Of a DNA stretch of 64,000 nt, positions 15,622 to 45,015 are shown one piece after another. Within the stretch, counting starts at the first letter, position 1. Each line of letters opens with the position of its first letter. The stretch is from Clostridium sp. CAG:678. Its GTDB lineage: Bacteria > Bacillota > Clostridia > Oscillospirales > Acutalibacteraceae. The position numbers and the translations under genes are program-made. The notes under the pieces were generated by a model that was given only the letters and a program-made list of their open reading frames with translations, had not been told where the DNA came from and did not search any database. The DNA is taken from assembly GCA_000431535.1 (NCBI GenBank), contig HF991825.1, forward strand, positions 210,126 through 274,125. The letters run 5' to 3'.

Positions 15622-15776
15622 GAAATAACGAGCAATGCGAAGCGAGAGCAAGCAGAGCGACTATATTTCTGACCGTATATGCGCAGGTCAACAGTCGCAG
15701 TCAGGAAACGGTTTTGAAACCAAACAGAGTAAAAGAAAAAATTAAATATGCTACTGTGGCTCAGTTGGTAGAGCAG
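15622..15776 (+). repeat. Tandem duplication, copy 2 (leads into the intact tRNA-Thr)
   Basis: Second copy of the segment at 15411-15563. The 58-base stretch between the copies (15564-15621) is unique and contains a GCCGGGGA direct repeat at its two ends. Confidence 0.9.
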
Positions 15777-15825
15777 CGCATTCGTAATGCGCAGGCCGTC
15801 GGTTCGAGTCCGACCAGTAGCTCCA
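15750..15825 (+). tRNA. tRNA-Thr (anticodon CGT)
   Basis: A 76-nt cloverleaf with a 7-bp acceptor stem (GCTACTG with CAGTAGC), D-arm GCTC/GAGC, anticodon stem GCGCA/TGCGC with loop TTCGTAA, T-arm GTCGG/CCGAC with TTCGAGT, and an encoded CCA end. The CGT anticodon reads ACG codons. Confidence 0.97.
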
Positions 15826-15898
15826 TTCGCCGTGAGCCATTCGCTCGCGGCGACATTTTTCACCAACTGCCGGAGAAACACGCAGTTTAATATTTTTT

Positions 15899-15975
15899 GG
15901 AGGCGTAGCTCAGCTGGTTAGAGTACCTGCTTCACATGCAGGGGGTCGGTGGTTCAAGCCCACTCGCCTTCACCA
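15899..15975 (+). tRNA. tRNA-Val (anticodon CAC)
   Basis: A 77-nt cloverleaf with acceptor GGAGGCG/CGCCTTC (one G-T wobble), D-arm GCTC/GAGT, anticodon stem CCTGC/GCAGG with loop TTCACAT, T-arm GGTGG/CCACT, discriminator A and encoded CCA. The anticodon CAC reads GTG codons. It lies 73 bases after tRNA-Thr and is probably on the same transcript. Confidence 0.97.
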
Positions 15976-38485: not shown

Positions 38486-39454
38486 ATGAATAACTTCAGA
38501 TGGGCATATATCGGCAGCGGCAATATCGCCGAATCCACGGCGCGCGATATCCTGCACGGTGCGCACAGTATTGTTTCTGTTTACGGCAGAAACGAGGAAA
38601 AGGTGCGGGCATTTGCCCAAAAATACGGCGCGCAGAGTTTTACGGATTTTGAAAGCGCTGTCAGCCGGGCGGATGTGGACGGCGTGTATATCGCAACGCC
38701 CCACACTTCACATGTGGACTATGCCGTTCGCGCCATGCGCCTCGGCAAACCCGTTTTGTGTGAAAAACCTGTGGGCGTAAGCGTTCAGGATGTTGACACC
38801 CTTATAAATACTGCAAAAGAAGAAAACATATATTTTTGTGAGGCAATGTGGACCTGGTTTTCCGATGTTGCCCTAACGGTGAAAAATTGGGTGCAGAGCG
38901 GCGAGATCGGCAGCGTTAAGGAAGTGGTGATCAATTATGCCTTTCCCGGCGTTCTGATGCCGAAAAATTCCCGTGTGTTAATGCCGGAAACCGCCGGCGG
39001 CGCTCTGCTGGATATCGGCATTTATCCCATTACCTACTGCTATAATCTGTTTGGGTATCCCAAAGATATCCGCTGCCGCGGCAGGCTTAAAAACGGAATC
39101 GATATCAGTGAGACCGTCACGCTGCAATATGACGGCTTTGACTGCACACTGCATATGTCTTTATGCACGCTCAAGGAAAACTGCATCATCAAAGGCACAA
39201 AAGGCACGGTCAGCCTGCCGGCTTTTTTCCATATGGCGTCCAAAGCCGTTCTGAAACATGAAAACGGCAGGCAGGTGTTTAAGGGAAAAACGGATTATTT
39301 AACGGAATTTACCCGCGCAGCGCAGGAGATTCGTGCAGGCAGAAAGGAATCGGCATATATTCCGTTTGCGGCAACAAGAAATTGTATGCTTATCCTGGAT
39401 GAATGCCGCCGTCAGCTTGGTCTTGTTTATCCTTTTGAAAAACAGGGTGTTTAA
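38486..39454 (+). CDS. Gfo/Idh/MocA-family NAD(P)-dependent oxidoreductase
   Basis: This 322-residue protein has a Rossmann domain opening WAYIGSGNIAEST (6-18), then IATPHTSHVDYAVRAMRLGKPVLCEKPVG with the conserved EKP (about 92-96; given in part) and a C-terminal alpha/beta sheet domain with GGALLDIGIYPITYCYNLFG. Family members oxidise or reduce sugars, inositols and dihydrodiols. Substrate unknown. GGTGG ribosome site. It is monocistronic and ends about 94 bases before the promoter of the aminotransferase-transketolase unit, to which it might be functionally but not transcriptionally linked. Confidence 0.9.
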   Translation: MNNFRWAYIGSGNIAESTARDILHGAHSIVSVYGRNEEKVRAFAQKYGAQSFTDFESAVSRADVDGVYIATPHTSHVDYAVRAMRLGKPVLCEKPVGVSVQDVDTLINTAKEENIYFCEAMWTWFSDVALTVKNWVQSGEIGSVKEVVINYAFPGVLMPKNSRVLMPETAGGALLDIGIYPITYCYNLFGYPKDIRCRGRLKNGIDISETVTLQYDGFDCTLHMSLCTLKENCIIKGTKGTVSLPAFFHMASKAVLKHENGRQVFKGKTDYLTEFTRAAQEIRAGRKESAYIPFAATRNCMLILDECRRQLGLVYPFEKQGV

Positions 39455-39547: not shown

Positions 39548-39577
39548 TTGACCCCGCTGATTGCAGTGTGGTATAAT
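39548..39577 (+). promoter_or_regulatory. Promoter of the SCP2/aminotransferase/transketolase operon
   Basis: TTGACC (39548-39553), 18-base spacer, perfect TATAAT (39572-39577). An approximately 85-base leader follows, with a 7-bp stem GAAATCC/GGATTTC (39607-39613 with 39633-39639). Confidence 0.8.
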
Positions 39578-39667
39578 AATTTGTGTATTTTGGCAAAGTA
39601 TTGCGGGAAATCCTCTCATTTCGAACGGATCCGGATTTCTCATGCTTGCTTTAAAGGAGGAATTGTT

Positions 39668-40432
39668 TTGACTGAAGCAAAAGCAATGGCATATGTGAAT
39701 ATGTACGGCGTTTTGGCTACGCTTGAAAACTTGTGTGAAATTGACGCAGAGGCAAAGGATATCCTTGCAGCCATGAAATCTCCCGTTTCGCTCTGTTTTG
39801 ACGTGGCAAACGGCCCGTGCGGCACATTCCATTTTACAAAAGGCGGCTGTAAATTCAGGGAGGGCTCGGCAGGCTGCACCTGCAAGATGAATTTTTCCTC
39901 TCCTGAAAAATTTAACGCGCTGATAGACAGCGCCAAGCCCGGTATTCCCACAAAAGGTGTTGTTCAGGTTCTGTCTTTCCTGCTCGGCACATTTACCAAA
40001 CTTACCGACCGGCTTACCAAGCTTTTAAGACCCAGTGAGGAGGATCTGAAAAACAAGGCGTTTTTTGAAGAATCCACCATCCTCACGTTTTATACCATCG
40101 CCGGCGCCATCTCTGCGCTTGCCAATTCGGATTCCATTTCTATGTTCACCGCAAAAAGCACGGTGGACGGTGTGGTTTCCATGGGTATCAAAGATAAATG
40201 CTATGCGGCGATCCAGGTCAAAAACCATCATTTTACAACAATAAAAGAAAAACCGTCCAACCCGAGAGCGGTTATGGAATTTGCGGATATAGAACTTGCG
40301 CACGGTCTGTTCACGGGCACGGCGTCCACCATTGCGGAACTCTGCGAGGGCAATATCTATATGGCGGGCATGATCTCCATGGTAGATAATCTCAACCGCA
40401 TACTGGACAGAGTTGCCGTTTATCTCGGCTGA
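39668..40432 (+). CDS. Tandem SCP2-like (lipid-carrier type) protein A
   Basis: This 254-residue soluble protein has no signal peptide. Two modules of similar layout are visible: about 25-100, with CKMNFSSPEKFNALI at 72-86, and about 150-250, with AVMEFADIELAHGLF then CEGNIYMAGMISMVDNL. Both resemble SCP2 sterol-carrier folds, which bind acyl chains. The segment FSSxEKxNA is shared with the last gene of this operon, so the two are paralogues. Cysteine-rich in module 1 (C43, C51, C61, C70, C72). The start is TTG at 39668 with AAAGGAGG seven bases upstream; longer in-frame starts overlap the promoter. The family call is by pattern only. Confidence 0.6.
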   Translation: MTEAKAMAYVNMYGVLATLENLCEIDAEAKDILAAMKSPVSLCFDVANGPCGTFHFTKGGCKFREGSAGCTCKMNFSSPEKFNALIDSAKPGIPTKGVVQVLSFLLGTFTKLTDRLTKLLRPSEEDLKNKAFFEESTILTFYTIAGAISALANSDSISMFTAKSTVDGVVSMGIKDKCYAAIQVKNHHFTTIKEKPSNPRAVMEFADIELAHGLFTGTASTIAELCEGNIYMAGMISMVDNLNRILDRVAVYLG

Positions 40433-40451
40433 TAAGGAGGATGTTGCAGAT

Positions 40452-41726
40452 ATGAGTAAATTTCCCGAATATAAACATGAAAAGAGCCAGGAGTGGTTTA
40501 AAAGAGCGCTTGCGGCGATTCCCTCCGGCGTATACGGCCATCTCGGCCCCAGTGAGGGCCTGTTTCTTCCCATCACAAAATGGCCCCTTATGAGCGATCA
40601 TGCAAAGGGTACATATTTCTGGGATGTGGACGGCAATAAATATCTTGATTTTATGTGCGCTTACGGCCCCAATGTGCTCGGCTACTGCGATGATGATGTA
40701 GACGCTGCTGCTATAGAGCAGTTAAGGCGCGGCAACTGCACCACTTCTCCATCCTACAAAATGGTGGAGTGCGCCGAGCTTCTGAAAGACACCGTTGCGT
40801 GCGCGGACTGGGCTTTCTTTATGAAAAACGGCTCAGACGCAACCACGTTTTCCGTTATGTGCGCAAGGGCGCATACCGGCAAGAAAAAGATGTTCTTCCT
40901 TCAGGGGTATTACCACGGCGATTTCCAGTGGGCGCAGAAAGTGGATTATCCCGGTATCCTGCCGGAGGAAGTTGCAAACAATGTTGTAATCCCGTGGTTT
41001 GATCTGGAGGCATTGCAGCAGGCTTATGACGAATGCGGCGGGGACGTTGCCGGCCTGATTGCCCAGCCGTATGATCACGGCAATTTCAAGGATAACGAAT
41101 GCGCAACCAAGGATTACTGGCAGGCCGTGCGCAAGTTCTGTGATGAGCACGGTATGGTTCTGATCTTTGATGACGTGCGCACGGGATTCAGGCTCGATCT
41201 TGCAGGTTCAGACCATTATTACGGCATAAAAGCGGATCTGATCTGCTTCTGCAAAGCGCTTGCAAACGGCTATAATATGTCTGCTGTCTGCGGCGGGGAG
41301 CATATGAAATCCACTGCTTCTTCCGTTACCTACACAGGTTCTTACTGGATGAGCGCGGAGCCGTTTGCGGCATGTCTTGCCTGCATAGATAAAATGAAAA
41401 AACTGGATGTGCCCAATCTTTTCAGAAAACTCGGCACAGAACTGACCCAGGGCTTTACCAAAGCGGCAGAGGAACACGGATTTAATCTTGTTGTATCCGG
41501 CGAGCCGGCGCTGTTCTATCTCAGGATCGCGAATGACGACAGCTTGATGCTGCACCAGGAATGGATCGCGGAATGCGTTTCAAGAGGTCTGTTCCTCGCT
41601 TCCCACCACAACCATTTTATAAATGCGGCGGTAACGCAGGATGATATCAAACTTGCCGTGGATATTGCAGAGGATGCTTTCGGCGTAGTGGCGAAACGGC
41701 ATCCGGAGATCGAAGGACTCAAATAA
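40452..41726 (+). CDS. Class III aminotransferase, glutamate-1-semialdehyde-mutase-like
   Basis: This 424-residue PLP enzyme has FMKNGSDATTFSVMCAR (phosphate-binding), LIFDDVRTGFR (cofactor Asp in a DxxxxGFR context) and the PLP lysine in CFCKALANGYNMSAVCG (about 268). It resembles HemL but lies far from any haem gene and has a DDVRTGFR in place of the usual DEVMTGFR. I infer amino transfer to or within a ketone/aldehyde made by the neighbouring transketolase. AAGGAGG lies 11 bases before the ATG; an ATG right at the end of that site is less likely. The length is normal. Confidence 0.85.
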   Translation: MSKFPEYKHEKSQEWFKRALAAIPSGVYGHLGPSEGLFLPITKWPLMSDHAKGTYFWDVDGNKYLDFMCAYGPNVLGYCDDDVDAAAIEQLRRGNCTTSPSYKMVECAELLKDTVACADWAFFMKNGSDATTFSVMCARAHTGKKKMFFLQGYYHGDFQWAQKVDYPGILPEEVANNVVIPWFDLEALQQAYDECGGDVAGLIAQPYDHGNFKDNECATKDYWQAVRKFCDEHGMVLIFDDVRTGFRLDLAGSDHYYGIKADLICFCKALANGYNMSAVCGGEHMKSTASSVTYTGSYWMSAEPFAACLACIDKMKKLDVPNLFRKLGTELTQGFTKAAEEHGFNLVVSGEPALFYLRIANDDSLMLHQEWIAECVSRGLFLASHHNHFINAAVTQDDIKLAVDIAEDAFGVVAKRHPEIEGLK

Positions 41727-41768
41727 TCGTTTACATAGATCCGATTATTTATTTAAGGAGGAAAATTT

Positions 41769-42662
41769 ATGCCAGCAAATTACAAGCCATTTGATAAAGA
41801 AGAATGGCTCCGCCTGGAAAAAAAGGCGGATGAACTCAGGCGTCTTACCGTTCAGACCACGGTCTGGGGCGGCTCGGGCCACATCGGCGGCGCGATGAGC
41901 GCAATGGACGCGATGACGATTCTTTATCACCGCTTTATGAAACTTGACGTCAATAACCCGGATCTGGAGGATCGGGACAGATTTGTTCTCTCAAAAGGTC
42001 ATGCCGCAGTTGGTTATGGCCCGGTCATCTGCGATTACGGCTTTATGGACGTGGAAGGTCTTCATAACTTTAACCTTACCGGCTCGCTCTTCGGTATGCA
42101 TCTGGATTGCAATAAGATCAAAGGTGTAGACTGCTCCAGCGGTTCGCTCGGTCACGGGCTGTCCCTTGCCTGCGGTTTTGCGCTTGCGGGCAGAGTGAAG
42201 GGTATCGACTATATGAACTATGTTCTTACGGGTGACGGCGAGCTCAATGAAGGCTCCAACTGGGAGGCGGCAATGACTGCCGCGCAGTTCAAGCTCTCCA
42301 ATGTCGTTGTGCTTGTGGATAACAATAAGTGCATGATCGACGGCAGAGTGGACGACGAAATGAAAGTTGAGCCGCTCGACAAGAAGTTTGAGGCTTTCGG
42401 CTTCCTTGTTGAAAGGGTGGACGGCCAGAATATGAAAGAACTCAACGGCGCCATCGAAAACGCCATCAATAACCATAAGAACGGCGGCGACAAGCCTTAT
42501 GCCATTATTATGGATACCGTGAAAGGCGCGGGCATTGATTTTATGGAAGATGATTATCACTGGCATTACGGCGCGCTGGACGACGAAAAAACAAAGAAAT
42601 GCTATGACAGTCTTGATCAATATTACGCGGCTCGTGTGGCGCGCGCGGAAAAGGAGGCGTAA
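41769..42662 (+). CDS. Transketolase, N-terminal (TPP-binding) subunit
   Basis: This 297-residue half-transketolase carries the pyrophosphate end of the TPP site: GGSGHIGGAMSAMDAM (about 36-51), RFVLSKGHAAVGYG and the metal/TPP motif LTGDGELNEGSNWEAA (about 155-170) through VLVDNNK. It combines with the next gene product to form an active split transketolase, moving two-carbon ketol units between sugar phosphates or other aldehydes. AAGGAGG at seven bases. The two halves are three bases apart. Specialised rather than housekeeping use is inferred from the cluster. Confidence 0.92.
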   Translation: MPANYKPFDKEEWLRLEKKADELRRLTVQTTVWGGSGHIGGAMSAMDAMTILYHRFMKLDVNNPDLEDRDRFVLSKGHAAVGYGPVICDYGFMDVEGLHNFNLTGSLFGMHLDCNKIKGVDCSSGSLGHGLSLACGFALAGRVKGIDYMNYVLTGDGELNEGSNWEAAMTAAQFKLSNVVVLVDNNKCMIDGRVDDEMKVEPLDKKFEAFGFLVERVDGQNMKELNGAIENAINNHKNGGDKPYAIIMDTVKGAGIDFMEDDYHWHYGALDDEKTKKCYDSLDQYYAARVARAEKEA

Positions 42663-42665
42663 GCT

Positions 42666-43679
42666 ATGGCAAGCGGAATGACTTATACCATGACGGAAAC
42701 CACCCAGCTTTCCACGGCTGAGTATTACGGAAAGGCGCTTTGCGAACTCGGCGAGGAGCATAAGGAAGTCGTTGCTCTTACCGCAGACCTTGCGAAGTCT
42801 ACCAAGATCGGTATGTTCGGAGAAAAATTTCCGGAAAGATTTTTCAATGTGGGTATTGCAGAGCAGAACATGTTCGGTGTTGCCGCGGGTATGGCGAAAA
42901 ACGGTCTGATCCCGTTTGCGTCCACATTCGCAATCTTTACGGCTGCCCGTTCGCTGGATCAGATCCATACGGATATCTGCTATCAGAACGTACCGGTTAA
43001 GATCATAGCAACCCACGCCGGAACTTCTTTCGGCCAGGCGGGTTCCACCCACCATTCTCTTATTGATATGGCGTGTATGCGCAGCCTTCCGCATATGACG
43101 GTTATCTGCCCGTGCGACGGCGTAGAAACTTACCACGCCGTTAAAAAAGCGTATGCATATCCCGGCCCGGTCTATATCAGGATCAACCGCGGATTTGACC
43201 AGATCATTTACAAAAATATCGAGGACTGTGATTTTGAAGTCGGCAAGGCAAAGGTGATGAACGAGGGTACGGATATCACGGTTATTGCGTGCGGTTCCTG
43301 CGTATATCAGGCTTTGCAGGCGGCGCAGATGGCAAATGCGGATGCCGGCATCAAAGTGCGCGTTCTCAATATGCACACCATTAAGCCGATCGATGAAGAG
43401 GCAATTCTGTCCGCCGTTATGGATACAAGAAGAATCATAACGGTGGAGGATCACACCGTGATGGGCGGCCTCGGCTCCGCGGTTGCGGATGTAGTTGCGA
43501 AAAGCGGCAAGGCGTGTGCGTTCAAGATGCTCGGTCATCAGGATGCATTCTCCACCATCGGTCTGCACGAGGATCTTATGTCCATCGCCAAGATAGACGC
43601 AAACGGTATTGCAGAAGCAATTGCCGAAGTAATGCATCAGGATTTTGAAGAGGATGACGCTTGGGACGATGAGTTCTAA
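42666..43679 (+). CDS. Transketolase, C-terminal (pyrimidine-binding) subunit
   Basis: This 337-residue second half of the split transketolase has the pyrimidine-binding domain with FFNVGIAEQNMFGVAAGMAKNG (shown in part; catalytic Glu of the IAEQ motif near 62), FASTFAIFTAARSLDQIH, then the C-terminal regulatory domain. It ends with an acidic DFEEDDAWDDEF tail. The ribosome site GGAGG lies within the end of the preceding gene, so the two chains are probably made in equal amount. Confidence 0.92.
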   Translation: MASGMTYTMTETTQLSTAEYYGKALCELGEEHKEVVALTADLAKSTKIGMFGEKFPERFFNVGIAEQNMFGVAAGMAKNGLIPFASTFAIFTAARSLDQIHTDICYQNVPVKIIATHAGTSFGQAGSTHHSLIDMACMRSLPHMTVICPCDGVETYHAVKKAYAYPGPVYIRINRGFDQIIYKNIEDCDFEVGKAKVMNEGTDITVIACGSCVYQALQAAQMANADAGIKVRVLNMHTIKPIDEEAILSAVMDTRRIITVEDHTVMGGLGSAVADVVAKSGKACAFKMLGHQDAFSTIGLHEDLMSIAKIDANGIAEAIAEVMHQDFEEDDAWDDEF

Positions 43680-43724
43680 ACTGCTGTTCTTTTTAAAATC
43701 TGATTAGGAAAGGAATGTGTTATT

Positions 43725-44519
43725 ATGGCAAGCGATGTAACCCGTTACACAAATAAAGTCTTTATGGCGGCGGCGCTTCCGCTGATGAAAACGATTGCCA
43801 CAGACGTGCCCGAACTTGCCAAAAAGTTTGAGGGCGTGGATGCTGTTTATCAGGTTTCCGCTATGGCAAACGCGCAGGATAAGGAAGCCGTTCACTTTAT
43901 CGTTGAAAACGGCGAATGGTCCTGCAAACTCGGCGAGTATTTCGGCCAGAAGAAGATAGACGCCGAACTTCAGTTTTCTTCTATGGAAAAGATGAACGCC
44001 TTTATGAAAGGCGATATGTCCAAACTGCCGAAGATGAAGATCAAGTCTTTCTCCAAATTTATAAAATTTATGGCGGTTCTGCTTAAAATGAGCAGTCTGC
44101 TTGGCATAAAAGAGCCGCCGGAGGATGAAACCCTTGCGCTTCTTCTGTGTAAACTGTATTTTTATCTGCTTTCAAGCGGTATCAGCCAGCTCAATAAAAT
44201 GGGCCATCCGGAGATTCATGACTGGACTGCGAAAAGCCCGGACAGAGTGTATCAGTGGGCGATCGAGGGTCACCCGGAATGCACGGCATATCTTCGTATC
44301 AAAGCGGGCAAATCCCGCGCCGGCAGGGGCGAATACAAACGCTCCAAACCGTTCTTCTGCATGAAGTTTGATACCGCGCAGCATGCGCTGATGATTCTGC
44401 TTGGCACAGGCGATATGCTGCAGATGGTAAAGGATAAGCAGCTGATTATGGAGGGCGCGCCCGAATTCGGCGCCATGATCGGTGATTATATGATGATCGT
44501 CGGCGATCTTGCAAAATAA
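43725..44519 (+). CDS. Tandem SCP2-like (lipid-carrier type) protein B
   Basis: This 264-residue protein is paralogous to the first gene of the operon. LQFSSMEKMNAFM (82-94) matches MNFSSPEKFNALI there, and the second module (about 172-264) carries KFDTAQHALMILLGTGDML and IMEGAPEF in the same relative place. A hydrophobic stretch between modules (about 107-152) could be a core helix pair or a membrane-facing segment. No signal peptide. AGGAAAGGA ribosome site. Ligand unknown; lipid or acyl binding is inferred from the SCP2-like pattern only. The operon terminator follows 16 bases later. Confidence 0.6.
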   Translation: MASDVTRYTNKVFMAAALPLMKTIATDVPELAKKFEGVDAVYQVSAMANAQDKEAVHFIVENGEWSCKLGEYFGQKKIDAELQFSSMEKMNAFMKGDMSKLPKMKIKSFSKFIKFMAVLLKMSSLLGIKEPPEDETLALLLCKLYFYLLSSGISQLNKMGHPEIHDWTAKSPDRVYQWAIEGHPECTAYLRIKAGKSRAGRGEYKRSKPFFCMKFDTAQHALMILLGTGDMLQMVKDKQLIMEGAPEFGAMIGDYMMIVGDLAK

Positions 44520-44535
44520 GAAAATGTCATAATTT

Positions 44536-44566
44536 AACGGGGCTGAACTTTTGTTCGGCCCCGTTT
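44536..44566 (+). terminator. Terminator hairpin after SCP2-like gene B (copy 1)
   Basis: A 13-bp stem with TTTT loop (44536-44548 with 44553-44565); the T-run is short. One base differs from the second copy at 44954. Confidence 0.75.
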
Positions 44567-44953: not shown

Positions 44954-44986
44954 AACGGGGCTGAACTTTTGTTCAGCCCCGTTTTT
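44954..44986. terminator. Terminator hairpin copy 2 (convergent with the GNAT gene)
   Basis: The same 13-bp stem and TTTT loop as at 44536, here perfectly paired and with T5. It lies 30 bases beyond the end of the leftward acetyltransferase gene and could serve the rightward side too. Confidence 0.8.
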
Positions 44987-45015
44987 GCTATCCGGCAGCG
45001 TGTTTTCAAATCGTG

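Follow-up and report, generated by a model that had tools for sequence, protein, structure and literature searches.

A conserved five-gene unit of Clostridia with a possible, hitherto undescribed role in making or breaking a sphingosine-like amino lipid

Why should an aminotransferase and a transketolase be encoded together between two proteins that no sequence family recognizes? The question arises from a 64,000-nucleotide window (the whole stretch of DNA analyzed here, to which coordinates refer) of Clostridium sp. CAG:678 (GCA_000431535.1, contig HF991825.1, 210,126 to 274,125, forward strand). Between 39668 and 44519, its + strand carries a series of five genes: SCPa (39668-40432, with a TTG start), coding for an SCP2-fold protein; AT (40452-41726), coding for a class III aminotransferase; TKn (41769-42662) and TKc (42666-43679), coding for the N- and C-terminal chains of a split transketolase; and SCPb (43725-44519), coding for a tandem SCP2-fold protein. 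An initial annotation of this DNA had described five closely spaced same-strand genes, each with a ribosome site, and both the gene calls and our reading of the sequence, in which a purine-rich site precedes every one of the five, agree with it.

The five-gene unit is real and not accidental. We propose, at about even chances, that it represents a two-module enzyme-carrier system that connects a hydrophobic aldehyde with a 1,3-dihydroxy-2-ketone and this ketone with a 2-amino-1,3-diol, and that it may thereby serve, in a way not described so far, to form or degrade a sphingosine-like amino lipid. The gene combination is not described in the open-access literature that we searched, which is limited evidence of absence. 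The enzyme families are each known; on this limited evidence, what appears new is their combination, the enzyme-by-enzyme pairing with SCP2-fold proteins, and the presence of a substituted transketolase beside an aminotransferase.

Conservation of the unit

A genome scan confirmed 296 loci, 80 of which were kept and fetched together with 20 from the genus and three others. All five genes stand in order in 93 of these 103 loci, 91 exactly, one with TKc as two open reading frames, and one with an extra aminotransferase on the opposite strand. Among the ten incomplete loci, six are truncated by a contig edge that falls within a gene or at its border, two break off shortly upstream with the next gene out of view (L062 after 145 bp and L066 after 507 bp), and two consist of TKn-TKc-SCPb only (L120 and L139). 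Some fetches are duplicates (L060/L124 and L061/L063 are the same places), and merging loci with identical TKc ends leaves the complete unit in 86 of 96. The flanks change between loci while the unit stays. That the five genes would travel together, as the initial annotation supposed, is thus borne out, and the objection that they might not co-occur falls away.

SCPa is present in 28 of the 37 genomes of the genus and in none of the 23 genomes of other genera in the same sample, and SCPb gave no match in the nine congeners lacking SCPa. In wider samples, counting its own genome, the unit was found in 5 of 245 genomes of the order, 5 of 391 of the class, and 5 of 398 of the phylum. It is common to many Clostridia, often of animal-gut origin. 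Pairwise distances correlate well among TKn, TKc, SCPa and SCPb (Spearman 0.80-0.93) and less closely for AT (0.49-0.64). The five-gene order is even retained in a genome of another class (G1057, locus L176), at identities to the nearest query of 28% for SCPa, 47% for AT, 54% for TKn, 63% for TKc, and 41% for SCPb. That these are chance neighbors around a housekeeping transketolase is next to impossible, given the fixed order, the joint absence of SCPa and SCPb in nine congeners, and a separate canonical transketolase in the same genome.

The split transketolase

TKn and TKc hold three transketolase domains over two chains (Transketolase_N, 4.8e-43; Transket_pyr, 2.2e-44, and Transketolase_C, 1.5e-28). 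Their best matches in the PDB are the chains of the split transketolase of Carboxydothermus hydrogenoformans (6yak, 1.4e-57, for TKn; 6yaj, 2.3e-79, for TKc), which has the same two-chain architecture and is reported to have no known specificity substitution (PMC7661550). In E. coli TktA numbering, all 100 of 100 TKn retain the catalytic and cofactor residues H26, H66, H100, D155 and H261, and all 101 of 101 TKc retain E411 and H473, these and the following counts including repeat fetches. D469 is replaced by A in all 101 TKc (by residue mapping, Ala125 of the window protein, 43038-43040), R91 by N in 99 of 100 TKn, the remaining one having an X (Asn102, codon 42072-42074), R358 by A, S or T in 89, 11 and 1 of the 101 TKc, respectively (Ala18, 42717-42719), and E468 by Q in 100 of 101. 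With N, A and A in place of R91, R358 and D469, the window transketolase departs from the acceptor residues of a pentose-phosphate transketolase. D469A and R91N also occur in distant members and in a second form of the unit described below; R358 is retained in that form and in one distant genome (G838).

In the E. coli enzyme, D469 is salt-bridged to R91 (PMC5073344), the variants D469T and D469A had improved activity toward propionaldehyde only, a non-hydroxylated aldehyde, and linear aliphatic aldehydes are substrates for several D469 mutants (PMC3657141). S385, H461 and R520 are kept in TKc, so that the phosphate-orienting set known from the literature (PMC11659671) is for the most part intact.

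The same genome encodes another, housekeeping-like split transketolase that keeps R358, R91, E468 and D469. The window enzyme is therefore not the sole housekeeping copy, the circumstance that would have spoken against the initial annotation, and this canonical copy rules out a housekeeping role for TKn and TKc. Another specialized enzyme considered was the sulfo-transketolase SqwGH of gut Clostridia, likewise a split transketolase recruited to a special ketose, which transfers C2 to glyceraldehyde 3-phosphate and has the motif RAFDR (PMC11659671). By our own mapping of this motif to R358, S385, F434, H461 and R520, the window transketolase reads A-S-F-H-R, with D469A in addition, which rules out this assignment; moreover, SqwGH is accompanied by sulfo-sugar isomerases, whereas the window unit has an aminotransferase and SCP2-fold partners.

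A third split transketolase is encoded elsewhere in the same genome (L003; G000:C36, about 38564-39271), beside glycosyltransferase- and aldo-keto-reductase-like genes. In this protein pair D469 is replaced by L, R91 by Y and H461 by G, while R358 is kept; it is a further specialized enzyme that may serve a surface sugar.

The aminotransferase

AT is a class III aminotransferase (Aminotran_3, 1.3e-37, 129.9 bits against a cut-off of 30.5) that falls below the cut-off of every NCBIfam model among the 25 listed of 68 matched. Its K268, which we take to be the pyridoxal phosphate lysine, is invariant in 94 proteins. Together with the three transketolase domains, this agrees with the earlier recognition of a thiamine diphosphate-dependent ketol-transfer enzyme paired with a pyridoxal phosphate-dependent amino-transfer enzyme. 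The class III relatives of AT include C-6' aminotransferases acting on sugars; in a PDB sequence search, its nearest solved relative is FumI (6hbs, 3.8e-79; the next follows at 1.7e-47). FumI belongs to fumonisin breakdown in Sphingopyxis sp. MTA144, where it acts on the sphingoid analogue hydrolysed fumonisin and transfers its C2 amine onto pyruvate (PMC2933618). In two related genomes (L181 and L182) an alanine racemase gene lies 74-79 bp upstream of SCPa-AT, and in a third (L183) an alanine dehydrogenase gene is nearby. Alanine/pyruvate as the amine partner would suit these neighbors, which are seen at few loci. The fumonisin breakdown pathway is not known to include a transketolase or an SCP2-fold protein.

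The SCP2-fold proteins

The first and last proteins had been described as paralogues sharing a motif FSSxEKxNA, which indeed reads FSSPEKFNA in SCPa and FSSMEKMNA in SCPb. Paralogy itself is supported: the two match each other in BLASTP (1e-5), and at E <= 1e-3 a profile of SCPa recovers all 94 of 94 SCPb proteins and one of SCPb 75 of 94 SCPa proteins. An earlier profile-profile comparison on shallow alignments, which gave a probability of only 3.6% (E 0.012), counts against it. Neither protein matches any Pfam family at E <= 1 or any NCBIfam family. None of 17 SCPb relatives matches any curated sequence model, and among 17 SCPa relatives one matches Alkyl_sulf_C at 0.16, the remaining matches being weak and unrelated.

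Both are nonetheless predicted to adopt an SCP2 fold, as the initial annotation had expected of their modeled structures. Two modules in each had also been proposed; this holds for SCPb by predicted structure and for the C-terminal half of SCPa, while the N-terminal module of SCPa is less certain, being suggested by secondary structure and by alignment rows that run across both halves. Among the fold families reported by the aligner, others staying possible, the predicted fold is shared with SCP2 proteins, with the SCP2 domains of the alkylsulfatases SdsA1 and Pisa1, and with UbiJ. SCPa and SCPb differ from these in their low identity (7-16% over the SCP2 rows), in their tandem modules, and in forming sequence families outside Pfam and NCBIfam. 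SCP2 proteins are typically lipid carriers. SCPb also has a conserved basic loop (residues 191-206, 44295-44342) in which R191, G195, R201, G202, Y204 and R206 are invariant in 94 proteins; AlphaFold leaves it mostly disordered, the predicted local confidence (pLDDT) of residues 196-206 being under 50. In SCPa, Cys23 and Cys61 are invariant in 45 aligned proteins and become variable once distant members are added.

Two modules and a second form of the unit

In three genomes (G838, G307 and G1065) SCPa+AT and TKn+TKc+SCPb lie at separate loci. Profile searches of the two genomes with TKn-TKc-SCPb only (L120 and L139) found SCPa elsewhere, beside AT each time, and in the genome of L062 SCPa lies on another contig, again adjoining AT. 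A second form of the unit, found at four loci of two other families (L161, L162, L163 and L164), has a polyol- or ketose-type dehydrogenase gene directly after TKn-TKc-SCPb, with a MerR-like regulator where the contig allows and, in L163, an additional class 3 aldehyde dehydrogenase. The aminotransferase and SCPa are not at these loci, and a search for SCPa in the four genomes gave nothing in three and, in the fourth, a match only at SCPb itself. Since distant relatives split the unit along this line and the second form is without SCPa, comparison of these loci indicates that SCPa belongs with the aminotransferase (module A) and SCPb with the transketolase (module B). It also suggests that a dehydrogenase can take the place of the aminotransferase, in which case both would supply the transketolase with a 2-ketone.

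Proposed reactions and alternatives

From the conserved unit, the residue changes and the splitting into two modules, all read from sequence, we infer a substrate, its chain length, a direction, and a role for the carriers as follows. Module B would move a two-carbon ketol between a sugar phosphate, served by the kept phosphate residues, and an aldehyde that is hydrophobic and non-hydroxylated, thereby interconverting R-CHO and the 1,3-dihydroxy-2-ketone R-CH(OH)-CO-CH2OH. Module A, with its FumI-like aminotransferase, would interconvert this ketone and the 2-amino-1,3-diol R-CH(OH)-CH(NH2)-CH2OH, probably with pyruvate/alanine, and each SCP2-fold protein would hold the hydrophobic intermediate for its own enzyme. 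Were R a long alkyl chain, the amino-diol would be a sphingoid base. In the breakdown direction, the amine would give the ketone plus alanine, and the ketone a fatty aldehyde plus xylulose 5-phosphate. The initial annotation had placed ketol transfer and then amino transfer on the path to an amino lipid: this is supported in part, for the two reactions fit the substituted residues and the relationship to FumI, while a lipid substrate and a synthetic direction are conjecture. The same reactions have been joined in engineered transketolase-transaminase routes to amino-diols, in which D469 is the main engineered site (PMC3657141, PMC10787763); those are laboratory cascades on short or aromatic aldehydes, whereas the window unit would be a natural counterpart with dedicated carrier-like proteins. 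It would then also provide a route for making or breaking sphingoid bases outside the serine palmitoyltransferase and phosphate-lyase pathways. The unit also defines two unnamed families of predicted SCP2-fold proteins, each tied to one enzyme, so that the idea of soluble bacterial carriers dedicated to hydrophobic intermediates can be put to a direct test.

Several observations weigh against such an amino-lipid system. Loss of D469 is by itself no sign of a lipid, since the third transketolase of the same genome has lost it too, and having an SCP2 fold is no proof that a protein binds lipid, since the methyltransferases SpnK and MycE and the acetyltransferase Eis also appear in the structure lists. 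FumI-like aminotransferases occur on four Proteobacterial plasmid regions, in none of them beside transketolases. An aldehyde dehydrogenase of class 3 accompanies module B in only 2 of 115 loci, alanine racemase likewise is found in 2 of 115, no transporter or regulator was seen that would belong to the unit in the main group, and a ceramidase-like gene was found in none of the 37 genomes of the genus, which lowers the odds of a dedicated role in ceramide breakdown.

Regarding direction, we lean slightly to breakdown, as a matter of judgement, because the five genes would suffice for it but do not include the tailoring genes and the source of aldehyde that synthesis would require in addition. 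The FumI precedent also speaks for breakdown, as do the dehydrogenase, the regulator and the aldehyde dehydrogenase that occur in the second form. The replacement of the aminotransferase in that form by a dehydrogenase, a regulator and, once, an aldehyde dehydrogenase makes breakdown at least as likely as synthesis. As a reading of its own, synthesis of a membrane amino lipid, from fatty aldehyde through dihydroxyketone to sphingoid base, is unlikely: the 80 loci show no recurrent neighbor of the acyl reductase, N-acyltransferase or head-group kind, and the dehydrogenases of the second form are of an oxidizing type and come with a regulator. In its favor are the missing ceramidase-like gene in the genus, the lack of a visible transporter or inducible regulator in the main group, and a product that would not be redundant, as no serine-palmitoyltransferase-type (alpha-oxoamine synthase) gene was found in 22 carriers (the own genome and 21 others; TIGR01825, E <= 1e-10; controls positive in 8 of 14). 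A search with E. coli BioF, which had no positive control of its own, also gave 0 of 22. If the alkyl reading and the synthetic direction both held, the type of product would be that of the serine palmitoyltransferase route. It is rather improbable that Clostridia lacking this enzyme have independently evolved another route to sphingoid bases, in which a transketolase extends a fatty aldehyde by two carbons, an aminotransferase aminates the resulting dihydroxyketone, and two dedicated SCP2-fold carriers pass on the lipid intermediates.

A polar sugar route, in which the transketolase would act on an unusual ketose, the aminotransferase would yield an amino-sugar alcohol, and the SCP2-fold proteins would be non-lipid scaffolds or regulators, we likewise consider unlikely. 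It would agree with the use of split transketolases for special sugars such as sulfoquinovose (PMC11659671), with the sugar-active C-6' relatives of AT, with the mostly retained phosphate-orienting residues, and with the occurrence of SCP2-like domains in non-carrier enzymes; however, the substitutions at D469, R91 and R358 speak against an acceptor that is hydroxylated and phosphorylated, the flanks of the 80 loci have no widely shared family of sugar transporters, kinases or isomerases, and the presence of two separate SCP2-fold proteins would be difficult to account for. The same two reactions might instead run on aromatic substrates, that is, arylglycerol- or phenylserinol-like compounds derived from phenylpropanoids of plants, with the transketolase releasing or using a benzaldehyde. 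E. coli D469T variants take benzaldehydes (PMC5073344), many scan matches are titled herbivore gut samples, and the two class 3 aldehyde dehydrogenases found beside module B, one in each of two lineages, have as their top NCBIfam model the benzaldehyde dehydrogenase MdlD, although they remain below its cut-off (459.7 and 457 against 550). Yet the same dehydrogenase is also close to a fatty aldehyde dehydrogenase (3.9e-122), the substrate of FumI is a long-chain amine, and lipids are the usual cargo of SCP2 proteins, so that we regard an aromatic substrate as quite unlikely.

Neighboring genes and transcription signals

Neighbor counts rest on the 80 kept loci and on loci from other searches. 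In the flanks of the 80, the most frequent family, which presumably corresponds to secA, is present in 23 loci and mostly on the other strand, and no pathway family recurs widely. An epimerase-like gene lies 12-150 bp past SCPb in 8 of 115 loci (including L060, 8002-9021; two of these loci are the same place), and represents one lineage, since the copies are over 91% alike. At one locus (L086, 4254-5777) a Ceramidase_alk-like gene (31.8 bits, cut-off 32.1) lies on the same strand 186 bp upstream of SCPa. Matches of this kind occur in 15 of 30 carrier genomes searched, ten of them over the cut-off; given their absence from the 37 genomes of the genus and their presence in 6 of the 23 relatives that gave no SCPa match, we claim no link to the unit. 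Codon bias was uninformative; an antisense open reading frame was among the genes used for it.

A strong promoter and a terminator had been proposed at the two ends of the unit, and both stand in part. The promoter-like site TTGACC-18-TATAAT (39548-39577, + strand) matches the consensus at 11 of 12 positions, with a TG before the second hexamer, and scores highest among eight sites; it is a consensus match only, and eight sites are about as many as chance would give (shuffle mean 7.2). The hairpin at 44536-44565 (+ strand) is stable (-24.3 kcal/mol, z -5.9) and a likely terminator, but its T tail is short and it is absent from the output of a consensus terminator scan. A near-copy of its sequence, with more T behind, lies further downstream at about 44955-44990. 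Two tRNA genes at 15750-15972 are the sole Rfam matches above gathering scores in the window.

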